A DNA stretch of 52,674 nt, from the NCBI GenBank assembly GCA_027076905.1, contig JALTGP010000250.1, positions 1 through 52,674 of the forward strand, in the 5' to 3' direction. The stretch comes from Campylobacteraceae bacterium (GTDB lineage Bacteria; Campylobacterota; Campylobacteria; Campylobacterales; Sulfurovaceae). The notes under the pieces were generated by a model, which saw only the letters and a list, made by a program, of their open reading frames with translations, ran no database searches and had not been told where the DNA came from. Positions 37,124-44,470 of the stretch are shown in pieces (the stretch's first letter is position 1; the number at the start of each line of letters is the position of its first letter). Position numbers and translations under genes: made by a program.

Positions 37124-37144
37124 CACAGTATTGTGGGTAAAAGT

Positions 37145-38413
37145 ATGCCCACATTTTTTATAAAAAATATTTTTTCTTTCCTTATTTTTTTACTATTTAT
37201 TTTTCCAATTTTTTTATACTCAATTAAACTTAAAATAGCCTCTTATAATGTAGAGAATCTTTTTGATATGCATCATGATAAAACAGAGTATTTAGAGTAC
37301 ATTCCCAATAGACACAACTGGACAAAAAAAATACTTGAAAAAAAGTTAAGAAATATTTCAGAGGTAATTTGTGAACTGAATGCAGATATTATAGGACTTC
37401 AAGAGATAGAGAATAAAAATAGTTTAAGACTGCTACAGCAATCATTAAAAAAATATGGATGCCCTGACTATAGATACTCCGCCATAACAGATAAAAAGAG
37501 CATCGCCATTCATGTGGCACTTCTTTCTAAGATTCCCATTAAAAGTTCCAGTGATATTGTTGTAAAAAGAGTAGGGGGGATGCGAAATATTCTGGAGGTG
37601 AAGTTTATAATAGATGGAGAGCCTCTCTATATCTTTGTAAACCATTGGAACTCTAAACGCTCCCCCGAAAGCAAGAGGATTATTTCTGCTTTGGCACTTA
37701 AAAAGAGACTTTTAGGGCTGAAAAAAGAGAGTGAATATCTTCTGATAGGGGATTTTAATAGTAACTATAATGAGTATAAAAGGGTAGGGAAAACAGGTAT
37801 TAATCATATTTTAAACTGTATGCTCTTTAGAGAAGAGTCAATGGTGAAGAGGATAGATTTTAGACACTATAATTTATGGTTAGAGCTGTTACCTTATCAG
37901 AGGTGGAGTCATAACTTTTATGGAGACAAGCAGGGGTTGGATGCAATCTTATTACCTCCTACTATGTTTGATGGTAAAGGTCTAGATTATCTTGATAACT
38001 CCTTTGGTGTCTTTAAACGCAACTATCTTTTTACCAAAAAAGGGTATGTAAATCGTTGGCACTATAAGAAAAAGAGACATATGGGAAAAGGCTACTCTGA
38101 CCATTTTCCTGTTTTTGCAACCTTCTCAACCGCACCATATAAGTTTAAGAAAAAGAATCCTATGGTCAACTGCTCCATAGCAGATATTATCAATAAAAAC
38201 ACTTCGTTACCTTGTCATTTAAAGAGTGTTCGTGTTCTAAATAGACAAAAAAGAGCTGTGAGTGTCACAGATAAAAAGAGTAAAATTATTATCTATGGTG
38301 TAGATAATCGTATAAAAGAGAATCATCTCTATGAAGTAGATGTTTATGCGACGAAAATCTATAAAAGTAGGTTTGAGATTATTGATTTTACTATGAATTT
38401 ATTGGGTAATTAG
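37145..38413 (+). CDS. membrane-anchored or exported endonuclease/exonuclease/phosphatase (EEP) family protein
   Basis: The frame also has GTG at 37133; ATG 37145 is preferred weakly because GGGTAA precedes it and the signal anchor (FLIFLLFIFPIFLYS) then starts normally. The 422 residues carry EEP motifs in order: IASYNVENLFD, IGLQEIE (metal Glu), VNHWNSK, LIGDFNS, LDAILLP and YSDHFPVFATF (catalytic Asp-His). A small C-terminal OB-like domain follows. The substrate (nucleic acid, lipid or sugar phosphate) cannot be told. Confidence 0.82.
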   Translation: MPTFFIKNIFSFLIFLLFIFPIFLYSIKLKIASYNVENLFDMHHDKTEYLEYIPNRHNWTKKILEKKLRNISEVICELNADIIGLQEIENKNSLRLLQQSLKKYGCPDYRYSAITDKKSIAIHVALLSKIPIKSSSDIVVKRVGGMRNILEVKFIIDGEPLYIFVNHWNSKRSPESKRIISALALKKRLLGLKKESEYLLIGDFNSNYNEYKRVGKTGINHILNCMLFREESMVKRIDFRHYNLWLELLPYQRWSHNFYGDKQGLDAILLPPTMFDGKGLDYLDNSFGVFKRNYLFTKKGYVNRWHYKKKRHMGKGYSDHFPVFATFSTAPYKFKKKNPMVNCSIADIINKNTSLPCHLKSVRVLNRQKRAVSVTDKKSKIIIYGVDNRIKENHLYEVDVYATKIYKSRFEIIDFTMNLLGN

Positions 38414-38449
38414 GTTATGATGCCATATTAAAAAATAAGGAGTAATAGG

Positions 38450-38965
38450 ATGAGTTACTATTTAGAGATTTTGTCATTTCATATTATTGCAGTTTTATCA
38501 TGGATGAGTGTTCTTTTCTATATGCCAAGGCTGTTTGTTTACCATCAAGAGCATAAAGATAGTAAAGAGTTTACTGATGTTATTAAGATTCAAGAGAGTA
38601 AAATTTATGGAGTGATAGGTTTTCCTGCTAAAATTGCCACCATTCTTAGTGGTGCAACGCTTATCTATCTCAATCCTACTCTGTTAGAACAGGATTGGAT
38701 GTTGGCAAAACTTTTTATGCTTGTTCTTTTGGTTATCTACTCTTTTTCGATGGAGTATTTTAGAAAAGTATTAAAAAGAGATGCGTGTACCCAAACAGGA
38801 CAGTTTTTTAGAGCCTATAATGAAATACCTACACTACTGGCTATTTTAATTGTTGTTTTTGTGATTATGAAGAGTGTTCCACTCTATTTTTCTATTTTTA
38901 TTACGCTTTTTTTTGGCTTTATTATCTATAAAATTTTAACAAAAGAGGTCAAGAGTGAGGGTTGA
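38450..38965 (+). CDS. hemJ: HemJ-type protoporphyrinogen IX oxidase
   Basis: Membrane enzyme of the penultimate heme step. The 171 residues have about five helices. Family motifs are FHIIAVLSWMSVLFYMPRLF followed by VYH, LAKLFMLVLLVIYSFS, and GQFFRAYNEIPTLLAI, very close to UPF0093/HemJ. A conserved His and Lys are present. The ribosome site is AAGGAGTAATAGG. The last 11 bases overlap rnhA. Confidence 0.88.
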   Translation: MSYYLEILSFHIIAVLSWMSVLFYMPRLFVYHQEHKDSKEFTDVIKIQESKIYGVIGFPAKIATILSGATLIYLNPTLLEQDWMLAKLFMLVLLVIYSFSMEYFRKVLKRDACTQTGQFFRAYNEIPTLLAILIVVFVIMKSVPLYFSIFITLFFGFIIYKILTKEVKSEG

Positions 38966-39743
38966 CAATACATTTATAGAGTTAGGTATGCAGAGTAAGA
39001 CTCTAAACAAGGCACAGTTTGAGATTTTAGGTCAACCCTATCCACCAAATGATGGGTGGGAAAGTTTGGTATTAGAGAGAGAACTCTCGACTAAAGAGAC
39101 CAATCTTTTTTTACTCTTACGAGGAAAGTTGGCATTGAAAGACCAAGAACAGATAGTCAAAAACTATACACTGTTGGCTACATTTCATCGTGATAAAAAG
39201 ATGAACAAAGAGGAGAAGCAGTCATCAGTCTCATCTGATAATTTGAAGATATATTGTGATGGAGCATGTCAAGGAAATCCTGGTGCATCTGGTAGTGGAT
39301 TAGCTATCTATCAGGGCAGTGCAAATCCTATTTTACTATATGGAGAGTATGAAAAAAGAGGAACAAATAATACAGCAGAGCTAAATGCCTTATATAAAGC
39401 CCTTTTACTGTCAAAAGAATCCAAGACATCAAAAGTTACTATTCTATCTGACTCTATGTACAGTATTGACTCCATTACCAACTGGGCGTATGGGTGGAAA
39501 AGAAAGGGATGGAAGAGGAAAGGGGGAGAGATTAAAAACTTGGAGATTATAAAATTAGCACATGACCTTTATAATAAAGAAAAAGATAGGGTCACCGTCA
39601 AACATGTCAAAGCACACTCTGGTATTGAGGGAAATGAACTCGCCGACAGAATGGCTGCTTATGCAATTATCTCCAAGAGTAGCAACTATCAAGAGTATGA
39701 CTATAAGCGTATTGATAAGGTATTGAAGATGACTGAGGGGTAG
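38955..39743 (+). CDS. rnhA: ribonuclease HI with N-terminal extension
   Basis: Cuts the RNA strand of RNA-DNA hybrids. The RNase HI domain (about 97-250) keeps all acids: IYCDGACQGNPG (Asp), NNTAELNALYKAL (Glu), ILSDSMYSI (Asp), and VKAHSGIEGNELADRMA (His, Asp). The first 95 residues are an unrecognised alpha/beta domain, making 262 residues against the usual 145-155. The GTG start overlaps hemJ. The 3' end overlaps the converging zinc-ribbon gene by 43 bases. Confidence 0.9.
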   Translation: MRVDNTFIELGMQSKTLNKAQFEILGQPYPPNDGWESLVLERELSTKETNLFLLLRGKLALKDQEQIVKNYTLLATFHRDKKMNKEEKQSSVSSDNLKIYCDGACQGNPGASGSGLAIYQGSANPILLYGEYEKRGTNNTAELNALYKALLLSKESKTSKVTILSDSMYSIDSITNWAYGWKRKGWKRKGGEIKNLEIIKLAHDLYNKEKDRVTVKHVKAHSGIEGNELADRMAAYAIISKSSNYQEYDYKRIDKVLKMTEG

Positions 39744-40840
39744 CTGATATTACCTTGATTGTACCTCTCTTGAAGATAAAAAATACCTCCTAGACTAAGA
39801 AATATAAGGAGTACTAAAAGAGTAATTTTAAGTGTACTATAGGGACGCTCTCCCACTATTTTTCCTGTTTGGGCATTGATGGCGTAGTTGTACTCCTTCT
39901 CTTTCCATCTAAATTGAGCCGTCCAGATAGGGAAGAGGACATTTTTATAGGTGGTATGGCTATAAGTAGTCTCCATCTCATCAATTCTCTGCTTATCTCC
40001 ACCAATATCTCTATGGATATCTTGTTTAATAGTAGGAGTCATTTTCATCTTCGCATACTCAAATGCGTTATCAAGCCCAATGGTATACTCTTCTGCTTTA
40101 AACCCTGCTAGGTAGCGTTCATCAAAAGGGATAAGCCTTGTGGTATCCCATGGGGTTAAATGGTTTAAAATAGAGTGAGATATGCTCTTGGATGCCCCAA
40201 TGGTAATATCATCAAAGCTATTGTAAACTACTCCTCGAACAGGTGACCAATGTATACGGGCTTCTCTCTGTCGTACTCTGCGTTGTCGTCCCTCTATAGT
40301 AACCGTTTTTTCCACCATAACATAATAGATTACCCCTCTTTGACCTTTATAACGGGTCTGCGTTTCGCTGTCATATGTCCAGTGTGGAAGATAGTATCCT
40401 TGAAGCTTTTTCTCTCCCTCTATAAAATCTTTGAGTCTGCTGGGTGCAAACCATAGTGAGCCAATCCATTTTTTAAATTTCTCTTGTGCCTCATCATGGG
40501 TTAATTCAAAAGGTAGTAGGGATTTTGGGGTAATCTCTTTGACAAAATCGGTAATGGCAGGAGTGTTACAGTAGGGGCAGTTGGCACTAATGGAGTAGGG
40601 GGTGAGTTGAAAATTGGCAGCACATTTATTACAGGTAATATCTTTGTTTATCTCTTGTGAGCTATTTTTATCCAAAAAGTTGAGTGCCGATTTAAAATCA
40701 TACTCCTCTATAGGCTCATTAGAAGAGGAGATAACTTTGGTTGTTGAGCAGAACTCACATTGTAGTGACACGGTTGCAGGGCTATATCGCAATGGTGCAC
40801 CACAACTGTCACAGGTAAAGTTTATAGATTGAAATTTCAA
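39701..40840 (-). CDS. double zinc-ribbon membrane protein of the XpaC-TelA-SPFH module
   Basis: The 379 residues start with two zinc ribbons: CDSCGAPLRYSP with CEFCS, and CNKCAANFQL with CPYC. A central beta-rich region (LPHWTYDSETQTRYKGQRG, GVVYNSFDDI) is followed by one transmembrane helix at about 345-363. This resembles B. subtilis YdjG-type proteins, and similar proteins are sometimes mislabelled as PriA helicases; no helicase motifs are present. The TTG start overlaps the SPFH stop as TTGA. Role inferred: membrane-complex scaffold. Confidence 0.75.
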   Translation of the reverse strand: MKFQSINFTCDSCGAPLRYSPATVSLQCEFCSTTKVISSSNEPIEEYDFKSALNFLDKNSSQEINKDITCNKCAANFQLTPYSISANCPYCNTPAITDFVKEITPKSLLPFELTHDEAQEKFKKWIGSLWFAPSRLKDFIEGEKKLQGYYLPHWTYDSETQTRYKGQRGVIYYVMVEKTVTIEGRQRRVRQREARIHWSPVRGVVYNSFDDITIGASKSISHSILNHLTPWDTTRLIPFDERYLAGFKAEEYTIGLDNAFEYAKMKMTPTIKQDIHRDIGGDKQRIDEMETTYSHTTYKNVLFPIWTAQFRWKEKEYNYAINAQTGKIVGERPYSTLKITLLVLLIFLSLGGIFYLQERYNQGNISYPSVIFNTLSIRL

Positions 40841-41928
40841 GATGTTGGCAGTGGGGGTGGTGTGTTATTGTCAAAATATTGTTCAAAAATACTCTTGGCA
40901 CTTGTCCAATCTTTTAGTCGTTTTGTCCAGATAAGTGTCTCCCCTGTTAATTTACCTTTTTTGATTAAGGCTCTAATTTTACGAACATCATAGGGACCAT
41001 CACTTATGCCATCAATGGCAACATAGTAAAGGCTCTCATCTCTACTTGGAAGTGGAGGAGGGGTATTTTTATCTGCTTTGCCTATCTGACTTATCATATC
41101 TTGCCCCAGAGACACTCCTATACCTACGCCTAGTATCTCACCGATAGAGGAGTTCCCCTTGGAACTGTTTCCCAGTGCTTCTCCTGTTTGCTGTTTGATA
41201 TATTTGTCCAAATCTCCTGTAAGTTCTCGACTTGTTCGTCTATCTAACGCTTTTTCTACCTCTTCAGGCAGAGAGATGTTCTCTACCAAAATATCTGTCA
41301 ATTCCAAACCATACTCATCAAATGAGGGTGCAATCTTTTGGGTAATATACTCTCCGAACTCTCCATAGTTTGCTGCAAAATCTAAAATAGAGATGTCACT
41401 TTTACCCAAAACAGTAGGTAGTCTACTGAGTATATGGTTGGTTAGTTGATGCTCAATCTCATCAACGATAAATAGAGAGTCTGTTCCTACAATCTCTTTC
41501 ATAAATCTCTTAGGTTCTGCAATCTTTATCTCATAAGTTCCAAAAGCTCTAAGACGTACCATTCTAAATTCAGGGTCTCTAAGCATAATGGGGTTTTTTG
41601 TACCCCATTTTAGGTTGGTAAATCGCTTTGTATTTAAAAAGTATATTTCAGCTTTGAATGGTGAGTTAAACCCATGATTCCAATTTTCAAGAGAGGTGAT
41701 AATAGGTAAGTTATTGGTATCTAGTTCATAGATACCAGGGCTTAGTACATCGGCAATAACTCCTTCATTGACAAAAATAGCCATTTGTGATTCACGAACC
41801 GTGAGTTTTGCTCCATATTTTATCTCATTGTCTTTTCTTGGAAAGCGATATACCATGGTATTTTGTGAGTCATCTGTCCACTCAATAACATCAATGAATT
41901 GACCAAAAACCCAATCAAATAATCCCAT
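40837..41928 (-). CDS. SPFH-domain protein with C-terminal GYF_2 domain (YdjI-like)
   Basis: The 363 residues start with an SPFH/band-7-like domain (about 20-230, with IYELDTNNLP and LTDILVENISLPEEVEKALD). No transmembrane helix is seen, so association with the membrane is via partners. A glycine-rich linker leads to a GYF_2 domain at 301-352 (YYVAIDGISDGPYD, then TLIWTKRLKDW). Identical TPPPLP motifs flank the GYF domain at 289-294 and 356-361. The ATG follows AAAGGATAAAAA. It lies three bases after telA. Confidence 0.85.
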   Translation of the reverse strand: MGLFDWVFGQFIDVIEWTDDSQNTMVYRFPRKDNEIKYGAKLTVRESQMAIFVNEGVIADVLSPGIYELDTNNLPIITSLENWNHGFNSPFKAEIYFLNTKRFTNLKWGTKNPIMLRDPEFRMVRLRAFGTYEIKIAEPKRFMKEIVGTDSLFIVDEIEHQLTNHILSRLPTVLGKSDISILDFAANYGEFGEYITQKIAPSFDEYGLELTDILVENISLPEEVEKALDRRTSRELTGDLDKYIKQQTGEALGNSSKGNSSIGEILGVGIGVSLGQDMISQIGKADKNTPPPLPSRDESLYYVAIDGISDGPYDVRKIRALIKKGKLTGETLIWTKRLKDWTSAKSIFEQYFDNNTPPPLPTS

Positions 41929-41931
41929 TTT

Positions 41932-43089
41932 TTATCCTTTTTTAGCATCTGCTACATCTGCTACATCTTGAATGGTCTCTTCGGGCAATGAAGCAATTTT
42001 GGCTTTTGTTGCCAGAAGTGCCTCTTTTAACTCTCTCTCTGTTTTGTCCAGTTCTATGAGTGCTTTTGCTCGTGTTAGTCGCCCCTCTTCTGCAATCTTA
42101 AGAGAGTCTGTTAGGGTTTCGATTAGTGTTTTATTGGCTATTTTAATGCTCTTAATGTCAAATACTCCACGCTCCATTTGCGTTCTAATTTCTACATTTG
42201 CCTCTCTAAGCCCCTCTGCATTTTTTTCTAAAAGCTCATTGGTTAAATCTGTGGCATTTTTAAGTGCTTTAGCAGACTCATGACTTCTAAAGATAGTTAC
42301 GGTTTGAGCCAGTTGGTTTCTCCATAGTGGCACGGTATTGACCAGTGTAGAGGCAATTTTATTAATAAGTGACTTGTCATTTTCTTGAATGAGGCGAATA
42401 CTTGGAAGCGACTGCATAGCTACTTGTCGGGAAAGTCGGAGGTCATGAACTCTACGCTCTAAATCCTCTCCAAAGGCACGTATCTCTTTTAAGTTTTGGA
42501 TAGCCAACATATCTTCATCTTTAGTTTTCTCTTCGTATATAGGAAATATATCTCTCTCTAGCTCTTTTTTCTTTATCTCCCCTGCCTCAATATAGAGTTC
42601 AAGTTTTCTGAAATATGCAAGGTTGGCATCATAGAGTTTATCTAAAGAGACAACATCTCTCATAAGTGTTGATTTATGCTCTTCTAGGTTATTTGCAACC
42701 ATATCTATCTGGTCGCGAACCTCTTCATATCCTTGTAGAAATTTAGCTAAAGGTTTGGTGCCTCCAAAAAGTTTTTTATACCAAGGTAGCTCTCTATTGG
42801 GATTAATCTCATCAATATCAAACCCTTTAATTGCTGCGACCATCTCATTTAGTACAGCACCTACACGCCCTGTATCTTTGTTTTTTACCCCATCAATCAT
42901 ACGATTAGAAATTTCATCAAGCTCCTCTTGGGCAGCTGCTCCAAAGTAGATGATAGAGGTTCTGTTGTTAAAATCCAATTCATTCATTGCCTTTTCAAGT
43001 TGGCTTTGCTCTTCTGGCATAACTAGAGGTAGGTTTTCACTCTTTTCCTCTATCTCTGCCTCTATGGTTTCTCTATTTTTTGTATTCAT
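41932..43089 (-). CDS. telA: TelA/KlaA-like toxic-anion-resistance family protein
   Basis: The 385 residues are almost all helical and soluble, with the TelA pattern DEISNRMIDGVKNKDTG near 58-74, LPWYKKLFGG, LEHKSTLMRDVVSLDKLY and VHDLRLSRQVAMQSLPSIRL. Family members are tied to tellurite resistance, cell-wall stress or membrane stress; the activity is unknown. The ATG follows GAAGGAGTAATAAATT. XpaC-TelA gene pairs are common, which supports the call. Confidence 0.88.
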   Translation of the reverse strand: MNTKNRETIEAEIEEKSENLPLVMPEEQSQLEKAMNELDFNNRTSIIYFGAAAQEELDEISNRMIDGVKNKDTGRVGAVLNEMVAAIKGFDIDEINPNRELPWYKKLFGGTKPLAKFLQGYEEVRDQIDMVANNLEEHKSTLMRDVVSLDKLYDANLAYFRKLELYIEAGEIKKKELERDIFPIYEEKTKDEDMLAIQNLKEIRAFGEDLERRVHDLRLSRQVAMQSLPSIRLIQENDKSLINKIASTLVNTVPLWRNQLAQTVTIFRSHESAKALKNATDLTNELLEKNAEGLREANVEIRTQMERGVFDIKSIKIANKTLIETLTDSLKIAEEGRLTRAKALIELDKTERELKEALLATKAKIASLPEETIQDVADVADAKKG

Positions 43090-43104
43090 AATTTATTACT
43101 CCTT

Positions 43105-43941
43105 CTAATTTTTTATCTGCTTTTGTAGTACTTCTATATTGACATCCAAATCAAATTGATTATTTTTTTTGAGGCGTTTTATCTCTTTTTCAAAACGCTC
43201 CTCTATGTCAAGTAAAAGATTTGAAAGCTTCTCTTTTGTCTCATCTGTAATCTCCTCTTCATCGATACTTGTATATGATTGAGTTACTTTTTTAATTCCA
43301 TCAATATAGACAATAATAAACTTTCTTGCCACCCGTAAATCTTTTGGATCCTCCTCTATGGTATCTATAATCTCATATCCTTTATTAGTTGCTATTTTTA
43401 GTTCAGAGTAGAGTTTTTTGTCAGTAATGTAGCTAATATTAGTCTCTATGCTGGAGAGTTTAGCTCTAGCTTCTGAGAGGGTTTCAATAACAAATTGAGC
43501 CGATATATCACCAATATTGTCAATTTTATCCTCTCTTGGGTCTGTTCCATAATAGAGATAGTATCCAATAGTAGAGACGATTGCTAAAAAAGTACCCGTT
43601 AAAATAGACCCCTCTCCTGCTACGGTTGAGGTAAATAGAGTTGAGAGACCAAGCAGTATCGCAGCGATTGTTTTAAAGGGTGTTTTGGGTGCTTTAGTTA
43701 GTGTTTTTGTATGATATTCGTACTCATTTGATAGTCCAATAGTGTTTATTTTTGCGGTTGCAAAAAAAAGTCCAAAAGCGATAATATTAGAAATAAAAGA
43801 GACAATATCTCTTTGTAAAAGTGCTAAGATAATAGCTAAAAAGAGTGGGGCTAAAAATAGATAGAGAAAATTCCCTTGTCTATGTTTGAACCTATTTTTT
43901 TTCTTAGGGTGAAATGGTTGATAGCGTTTTGCTTTTGACAT
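43105..43941 (-). CDS. XpaC-like membrane protein
   Basis: The 278 residues start with a basic stretch, then four hydrophobic helices between about 24 and 135 (FLYLFLAPLFLAIILALL, FISNIIAFGLFFATA, TIAAILLGLSTLF, GTFLAIVSTIGYYLYYG). The cytoplasmic C-terminal half is helical (FVIETLSEARAKLSSIETNI). XpaC was named for an effect on 5-bromo-4-chloroindolyl phosphate hydrolysis, but its molecular role is unclear. The ATG follows AGGGTAGGAT, which overlaps the end of a 27-codon peptide gene. Confidence 0.8.
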   Translation of the reverse strand: MSKAKRYQPFHPKKKNRFKHRQGNFLYLFLAPLFLAIILALLQRDIVSFISNIIAFGLFFATAKINTIGLSNEYEYHTKTLTKAPKTPFKTIAAILLGLSTLFTSTVAGEGSILTGTFLAIVSTIGYYLYYGTDPREDKIDNIGDISAQFVIETLSEARAKLSSIETNISYITDKKLYSELKIATNKGYEIIDTIEEDPKDLRVARKFIIVYIDGIKKVTQSYTSIDEEEITDETKEKLSNLLLDIEERFEKEIKRLKKNNQFDLDVNIEVLQKQIKN

Positions 43942-43944
43942 ATC

Positions 43945-44028
43945 CTACCCTAATAACTTTCCAAGTGGGTACCAAACGGTTAATCCAGCAGAGAATAGAA
44001 TAAATAAAAAACCGAATATTTTTTGCAA
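43945..44028 (-). CDS. 27-residue small membrane peptide upstream of xpaC-like gene
   Basis: A TTG start at 44028 follows AAGGAAGAAG, a good ribosome site. The peptide begins MQKIFGFLFILFSAGL, a single hydrophobic helix, and ends TVWYPLGKLLG. The TAG stop is three bases from the XpaC-like ATG, and the peptide's last codons form that gene's ribosome site, so translation is likely coupled. It appears to be the first gene of the membrane module. Evidence is coding logic only; no family is known to me. Confidence 0.6.
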   Translation of the reverse strand: MQKIFGFLFILFSAGLTVWYPLGKLLG

Positions 44029-44152: not shown

Positions 44153-44470
44153 ATGAACTTAGAAGTGTTACAAAAGAGTGTGAGTGAAGAGGTGGGTCTG
44201 TTGGTGTATTTTTCAGGTGAGAATTGTAATGTTTGTCATGCGTTAAGACCAAAATTTAAAGATCTTTTTGATTCAGATTTTCCTTTAGTCAAACAGATTT
44301 ATTTGGATGCGGAGGAGAACGCTGAAATTGCAGGATATTATCAAGTTCTCTCTGTTCCTGCTATGTTGGTGTTTTTAGATGGTCGAGAGTTTATTCGAGA
44401 GGGGCGAAGTGTAAGTCTATATCAGTTAAAAGAGAAGCTAGAGAGACCTTATACTATGATGATTTCTTGA
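44153..44470 (+). CDS. thioredoxin-family protein with CNVC active site
   Basis: The 105 residues form a single thioredoxin fold without a signal peptide. Active site is YFSGENCNVCHALRPKF (CNVC rather than CGPC), and the cis-proline loop is SVPAMLVF. Probably a cytoplasmic thiol reductase or redox sensor. The ATG follows AAGGTAAGAT. It is divergent from the membrane module. Confidence 0.87.
   Translation: MNLEVLQKSVSEEVGLLVYFSGENCNVCHALRPKFKDLFDSDFPLVKQIYLDAEENAEIAGYYQVLSVPAMLVFLDGREFIREGRSVSLYQLKEKLERPYTMMIS

Follow-up and report, generated by a model that had tools for sequence, protein, structure and literature searches.

Described systems with related components

In Bacillus subtilis the pspA-ydjG-ydjH-ydjI operon encodes a Band_7_1 SPFH protein and a membrane protein with two zinc ribbons together with a membrane partner (PMC8581546, PMC11237479). 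YdjG and YdjH anchor YdjI, and YdjI is required for bringing PspA to the membrane (PMC8581546). The band-7, zinc-ribbon and TPM partners of PspA (TPM being a domain of YdjH in the PspA operon) have been reviewed, and tellurite or toxic-anion proteins are unmentioned in that review (PMC11237479). Other related loci are xpaC-yaaN of Bacillus and lmo1966-lmo1967 of Listeria, in which XpaC and TelA are encoded next to each other; Bacillus YaaN matches the TelA profile with an E-value of about 1e-93. TelA has been proposed to form sub-membrane structures as a component of Ter stress-response systems, also in jumbo phages (PMC7824862). Finally, other Campylobacterota encode TelA with an SPFH-family scaffold in a TelA-YqiJ-YqiK (flotillin) operon. 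With its flotillin of the YqiK type, this is a second and independent TelA-SPFH operon (locus L045, 10636-14522; locus L049, 4961-8616).

Here, we describe a locus on contig JALTGP010000250.1 of a Campylobacteraceae bacterium (Sulfurovaceae); the whole stretch analysed, 52,674 nt long, is called the window. As in the Bacillus psp operon, a Band_7_1 SPFH protein and a double zinc-ribbon (ZnR) membrane protein are encoded together, but PspA and the TPM protein YdjH are missing and XpaC, TelA and a transmembrane (TM) peptide are present instead. Moreover the SPFH protein carries a GYF_2 domain whereas the Bacillus band-7 protein has a C-terminal zinc ribbon (PMC11237479). XpaC and TelA follow each other in the same order as in Bacillus and Listeria, but the pairs of those genera have no SPFH or zinc-ribbon partner and their XpaC proteins are shorter (about 204-219 aa versus 278) and only weakly similar. 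TelA-YqiJ-YqiK differs by a divergent TelA class, by a true flotillin and YqiJ, by the lack of a zinc ribbon and by XpaC, which was not found there. The combination XpaC-TelA-SPFH-ZnR was not found in the literature searched; the likeliest place for an earlier description (Anantharaman et al. 2012) lies outside that search. It is thus a seemingly undescribed combination of known families with a new micro-protein family, for which a plausible mechanism can be proposed. With a probability of roughly 55% we suggest that this operon encodes a single scaffold beneath the cytoplasmic membrane, which it would maintain or protect during envelope stress.

Architecture of the locus

Five genes are transcribed from the minus strand in the order peptide, XpaC, TelA, SPFH-GYF_2 and ZnR:

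43945..44028, minus strand: 27-residue single-TM micro-protein with TTG start, MQKIFGFLFILFSAGLTVWYPLGKLLG; read from the sequence, stop 3 nt before XpaC
43105..43941, minus strand: XpaC-like protein with N-terminal membrane hairpins and a cytosolic PF10112 domain (Pfam, E 1.3e-21)
41932..43089, minus strand: TelA (toxic anion resistance), without TM segment (Pfam PF05816, E 4.5e-100)
40837..41928, minus strand: SPFH (Band_7_1) protein with C-terminal GYF_2 (Pfam, Band_7_1 1e-92, GYF_2 1e-11)
39701..40840, minus strand: double zinc-ribbon protein with a long beta-strand body and a tail-anchor TM segment (eight Cys, model, hydropathy)

The intergenic spacing is 3 nt between peptide and XpaC, 15 nt between XpaC and TelA and 3 nt between TelA and SPFH, while the SPFH stop and the ZnR start share a 4-nt TTGA overlap. 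These coordinates agree exactly with the original prediction of five genes with gaps of 3-15 nt and a four-base overlap. A single operon had also been predicted, and both the tight packing on one strand and the gene order, which recurs in 57 of the nearest 80 SPFH loci, bear this out. Judged by operon-like packing and kept order the five genes are one operon. Scanning for promoters and terminators gave no more sites than in shuffled sequences, and no minus-strand site immediately ahead of the peptide gene; Rfam matches and tRNAs were not found within the window.

A thioredoxin-like gene (44153-44470, plus strand) is divergent from the operon, and a similar gene also lies near a lone SPFH-ZnR pair (locus L132, 2897-3217). 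At the other end, the ZnR gene converges with an RNase H gene (38955-39743), and their 3' ends share 43 nt (39701-39743). Synteny of the flanking EEP-type nuclease and HemJ-like genes (window 37133-39743) is kept in Sulfurovum-labelled bins (L052, L054, L056), which assigns the window to this group.

SPFH and zinc-ribbon proteins

The C-terminal region of the SPFH protein contains three features:

41047..41061, minus strand: PPPLP motif, residues 290-294, directly before GYF_2, kept across phyla
40888..41028, minus strand: GYF_2 domain, residues 301-347 (Pfam)
40846..40860, minus strand: C-terminal PPPLP motif, the second one, residues 357-361, with its spacing to the first motif found in most relatives

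That the SPFH protein is tipped by a GYF domain had been predicted and is reflected in the Pfam match; the proline motifs on both sides of it were absent from that prediction. By sequence the GYF_2 domain matches PDB entry 7z3c (Adventurous gliding motility protein X, E 2.1e-7). In most of the best 80 of at least 522 SPFH relatives, and in all phyla, TPPPLP-like motifs occur on both sides of GYF_2 about 66-67 residues apart, the second of them at the C-terminus or close to it. Proline-rich peptides are known ligands of GYF domains. Cross-linking of neighbouring subunits by GYF-PPPLP contacts is therefore an economical reading, and the two flanking motifs suggest such self-cross-linking of the SPFH protein. 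Alternatively, the GYF domain may bind the variable N-terminus of TelA or other partners.

The ZnR protein contains four CxxC pairs. All eight of their cysteines were unchanged throughout an alignment of 9 sequences and then throughout one of 65. No Pfam model exceeded its cut-off; DZR gave a weak match (15.4 bits, cut-off 27.3). The confident AF2 model (pLDDT 93.5) comprises two ribbons, a C-terminal TM helix (residues 336-361) that is backed by a hydropathy peak, and very long beta strands (residues 147-182, 185-215 and 283-312). A search with this model in the PDB yielded no fold match, and the pore-toxin entries listed have TM-scores near 0.1, which are not meaningful. Given strands 30-36 residues long and the lack of a PDB counterpart, the protein possibly represents an undescribed fold. 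A Band_7_1 SPFH gene thus adjoins the gene of a double-zinc-ribbon TM protein, as in the YdjI-type SPFH/zinc-ribbon module, and by the published work on that system (PMC8581546, PMC11237479) the pair would be a parallel of YdjI and YdjG.

XpaC and TelA

The adjacent PF10112 and PF05816 genes form an XpaC-TelA pair in the order known from Bacillus and Listeria. Hydropathy maxima of XpaC are found at residues 24-63 and 91-109. For TelA the AF2 model is of moderate confidence (pLDDT 74.5) and shows a very long hairpin (residues 113-306) made of helices 113-191 and 194-306. Comparison of this model with PDB folds gave no match at E <= 0.001; the best were generic long-helix proteins, and PspA/ESCRT-III was not within the top 50. 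A sequence search of the PDB found no TelA structure. Model and fold search gave no confident match that would speak for a structural homology of TelA with PspA/ESCRT-III, and therefore TelA is likened to PspA by function only.

The family name of TelA would imply a dedicated operon for resistance to tellurite or metal oxyanions, which we consider very improbable. TelA mutants or lowered TelA levels in Lactococcus and Listeria go with nisin and/or tellurite sensitivity, and these loci do affect tellurite tolerance (PMC13109727, PMC12791056); yet the Listeria telA (lmo1967) mutant, as cited in PMC12791056, is sensitive to both compounds and more strongly to nisin. Besides, the operon has neither a redox enzyme nor a transporter, and partners such as SPFH and TPM suggest a link to membranes.

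The micro-protein

In most loci XpaC is preceded by the gene of a TM peptide, usually 22-34 residues long. Two types can be distinguished, xKIFGFLFILxSAGxxVWYPLxxL in Campylobacterota and KKIIGFLLLLxTVGLVSxQALF in Gammaproteobacteria. An HMM seeded with 13 campylobacterotal peptides (match threshold >8 bits) recognized 30 of 51 held-out XpaC upstream regions and none of 427 control gene starts; an earlier filter based on hydrophobicity and a Shine-Dalgarno motif had been weaker (33/61 versus 41/427 controls). Among seven close relatives 103, 6 and 201 differences fall on the three codon positions and pN/pS is 0.13, which indicates purifying selection. The held-out test and pN/pS rule out a chance open reading frame. 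By these coding signatures the small peptide is a real and easily missed protein family, which supports its original listing as a module member and goes beyond it in family conservation. It is also found upstream of XpaC-TelA at loci with the SPFH gene elsewhere (L034, L036), and therefore we assign it to the XpaC-TelA half. Upstream of Bacillus or Listeria xpaC no peptide of this family was seen.

Distribution and co-inheritance

An SPFH alignment scan of 84,980 species genomes revealed at least 522 relatives, the best 80 of which were read. XpaC, TelA, SPFH and ZnR occur in this order at 57 of these 80 loci (in 54 without irregularity; in the other 3 a gene is split or doubled), XpaC-TelA-SPFH at 6 (some ended by contig limits), TelA-SPFH-ZnR at 4, SPFH-ZnR only at 8 and SPFH only at 5. 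The module is over-represented among these loci since they were picked for being most closely related to the query, a bias of which the genome samples described below are free. Median gaps within the quartet are 22, 2 and 12 nt. Genes outside the operon vary from genus to genus, and therefore the four-gene set is regarded as the unit.

Carriers among Campylobacterota are Sulfurovum, Nitratifractor, Sulfurimonas and Sulfurospirillum bins. The module is also found in Gammaproteobacteria (Leucothrix, Thiothrix, Granulosicoccus, Sedimenticola and Competibacter bins and others) and in Alphaproteobacteria (Yoonia, Sagittula, Sulfitobacter, Geminicoccaceae). Hence it is kept well beyond Campylobacterota, as the original proposal had asked to be checked, and is not an adjacency of this strain. 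The proposed merger, in which XpaC-TelA is joined to an SPFH/zinc-ribbon pair, is seen here as well as in relatives. SPFH-ZnR without TelA occurs in Vibrio, Comamonas and in records of Bacteroidota, Planctomycetota and Aminicenantes. In Rhodobacterales and related genomes (L123, L129, L131, L149, L150, L153) an extra gene, DUF2927 in L131, lies between TelA and SPFH; in L149 and L150 there is another extra gene besides, and ZnR is located elsewhere.

Any TelA over the cut-off is present in 28 of 298 campylobacterotal genomes and strong TelA (E <= 2e-100) in 13, which are spread over eight genera in four families of the order; in most of these 13 TelA directly follows XpaC and is itself followed by SPFH-ZnR. 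Strong Band_7_1 (E < 1e-84) occurs in 12 of the 298 genomes, and 12 have both (Fisher 1.6e-20). Among 299 Pseudomonadota TelA with E < 1e-104 is found in 16, Band_7_1 with E <= 1e-98 in 15 and both in 14 (Fisher 4.7e-21). These p-values are descriptive because the cut-offs were set after viewing the lists and genome relatedness was ignored. In two of the three genomes with TelA only (G208, G505) a divergent SPFH gene adjoins TelA. The SPFH-ZnR pair lies on a different contig from XpaC-TelA in G003 and G131, and the ZnR gene is unlinked in G509 and G484. Retention of the unlinked parts in these four genomes indicates a functional link. The trees of the four genes (46 loci and the window) are largely congruent, with 0-3 conflicting strong splits per gene pair of 23-29 per gene. 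Recurring order, gene trees and the Pseudomonadota sample rule out a chance neighbourhood or a strain-specific mobile cassette.

The same data bear on the question whether the operon comprises two separate envelope modules (XpaC-TelA with the peptide, and SPFH-ZnR) that are co-expressed for the same stress without a joint complex. XpaC-TelA does occur without SPFH in Bacillus and Listeria and SPFH-ZnR without TelA, both pairs are found at different loci in G003 and G131, and the peptide goes with XpaC-TelA and not with SPFH. Such a division is nevertheless rather unlikely in our opinion, as these TelA and SPFH subclasses co-occur near-exclusively, even a divergent SPFH still adjoins TelA (G208, G505), and a linkage of TelA with flotillin arose separately.

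Less probable still is a Ter-type defence or anti-superinfection function in which TelA and SPFH would remodel the membrane against the entry of phages or xenobiotics. It would fit the proposed role of TelA in Ter systems and jumbo phages (PMC7824862), the patchy spread of TelA and a Vibrio coralliilyticus plasmid (L139, 1-7154), where SPFH-ZnR without TelA lies near TIR-domain and TRAFs-binding genes in a possible defence island. However, PADLOC gave no match for the four proteins of the module, so that a known defence system was dismissed, and TerB, TerC, TerD and TerF were absent among the four flanking proteins that were scanned. Housekeeping genes make up some of the flanks, with synteny kept in Sulfurovum, and the congruence of the four gene trees also speaks against this function.

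Relation to PspA and proposed mechanism

We return to the single scaffold. Its SPFH domains would line the inner membrane face as a ring or cage. This assembly would be cross-linked by its GYF domains, which would bind PPPLP in adjacent subunits or in partners. The double zinc-ribbon protein with its tail anchor would fix the assembly to the membrane, a role that YdjG/YdjH have for YdjI in Bacillus. XpaC and the 27-residue TM peptide would keep the long, helical and cytosolic TelA at the membrane, where it would act as functional counterpart of Bacillus PspA. The physical complex, the GYF-PPPLP binding and the stress role are all parts that we infer. TelA would take the position of PspA in Bacillus because partners are shared with the PspA system twice (SPFH-ZnR here and TPM in Clostridia) and TelA is separately linked to YqiJ-flotillin in other Campylobacterota.

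PspA (PF04012) was not found in the genome of the window (84.7% complete) or in 12 relatives with the same TelA class. The original description of the module as being without PspA holds for these genomes; as a rule for the module it fails, since some PspA is encoded elsewhere in 6 of the 14 Pseudomonadota genomes that carry the module (versus 96 of 299 overall). This also rules out strict replacement in the sense of mutual exclusion. The strongest PspA match in the 14 genomes has an E-value of only 4.8e-20, which lineage could explain. As module and PspA coexist elsewhere, the claim is that the module works like PspA and not that it replaces it.

A more far-reaching version, which we put forward tentatively and with less confidence than the scaffold itself, is a widespread PspA-independent machine for membrane repair or organisation, in which TelA would do the job of PspA on a GYF/PPPLP-cross-linked SPFH cage, with a micro-protein of about 30 residues gating or anchoring it. 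If true, such a machine would give TelA, XpaC and an overlooked peptide family one common function. Currently the names TelA and XpaC are misleading (tellurite resistance, indolyl phosphate hydrolysis) and come without a mechanism; the operon connects both with an SPFH scaffold, with a tail-anchored zinc-ribbon protein and with a micro-protein. The module would be a concrete, testable machine that carries the idea of a Psp-like envelope-stress response to bacteria without PspA, and it yields a new family of small membrane proteins and a specific hypothesis on the GYF ligand. In Clostridia, XpaC-TelA is followed by a TPM-domain gene (L144, 4134-6540; L146, 3982-7599).
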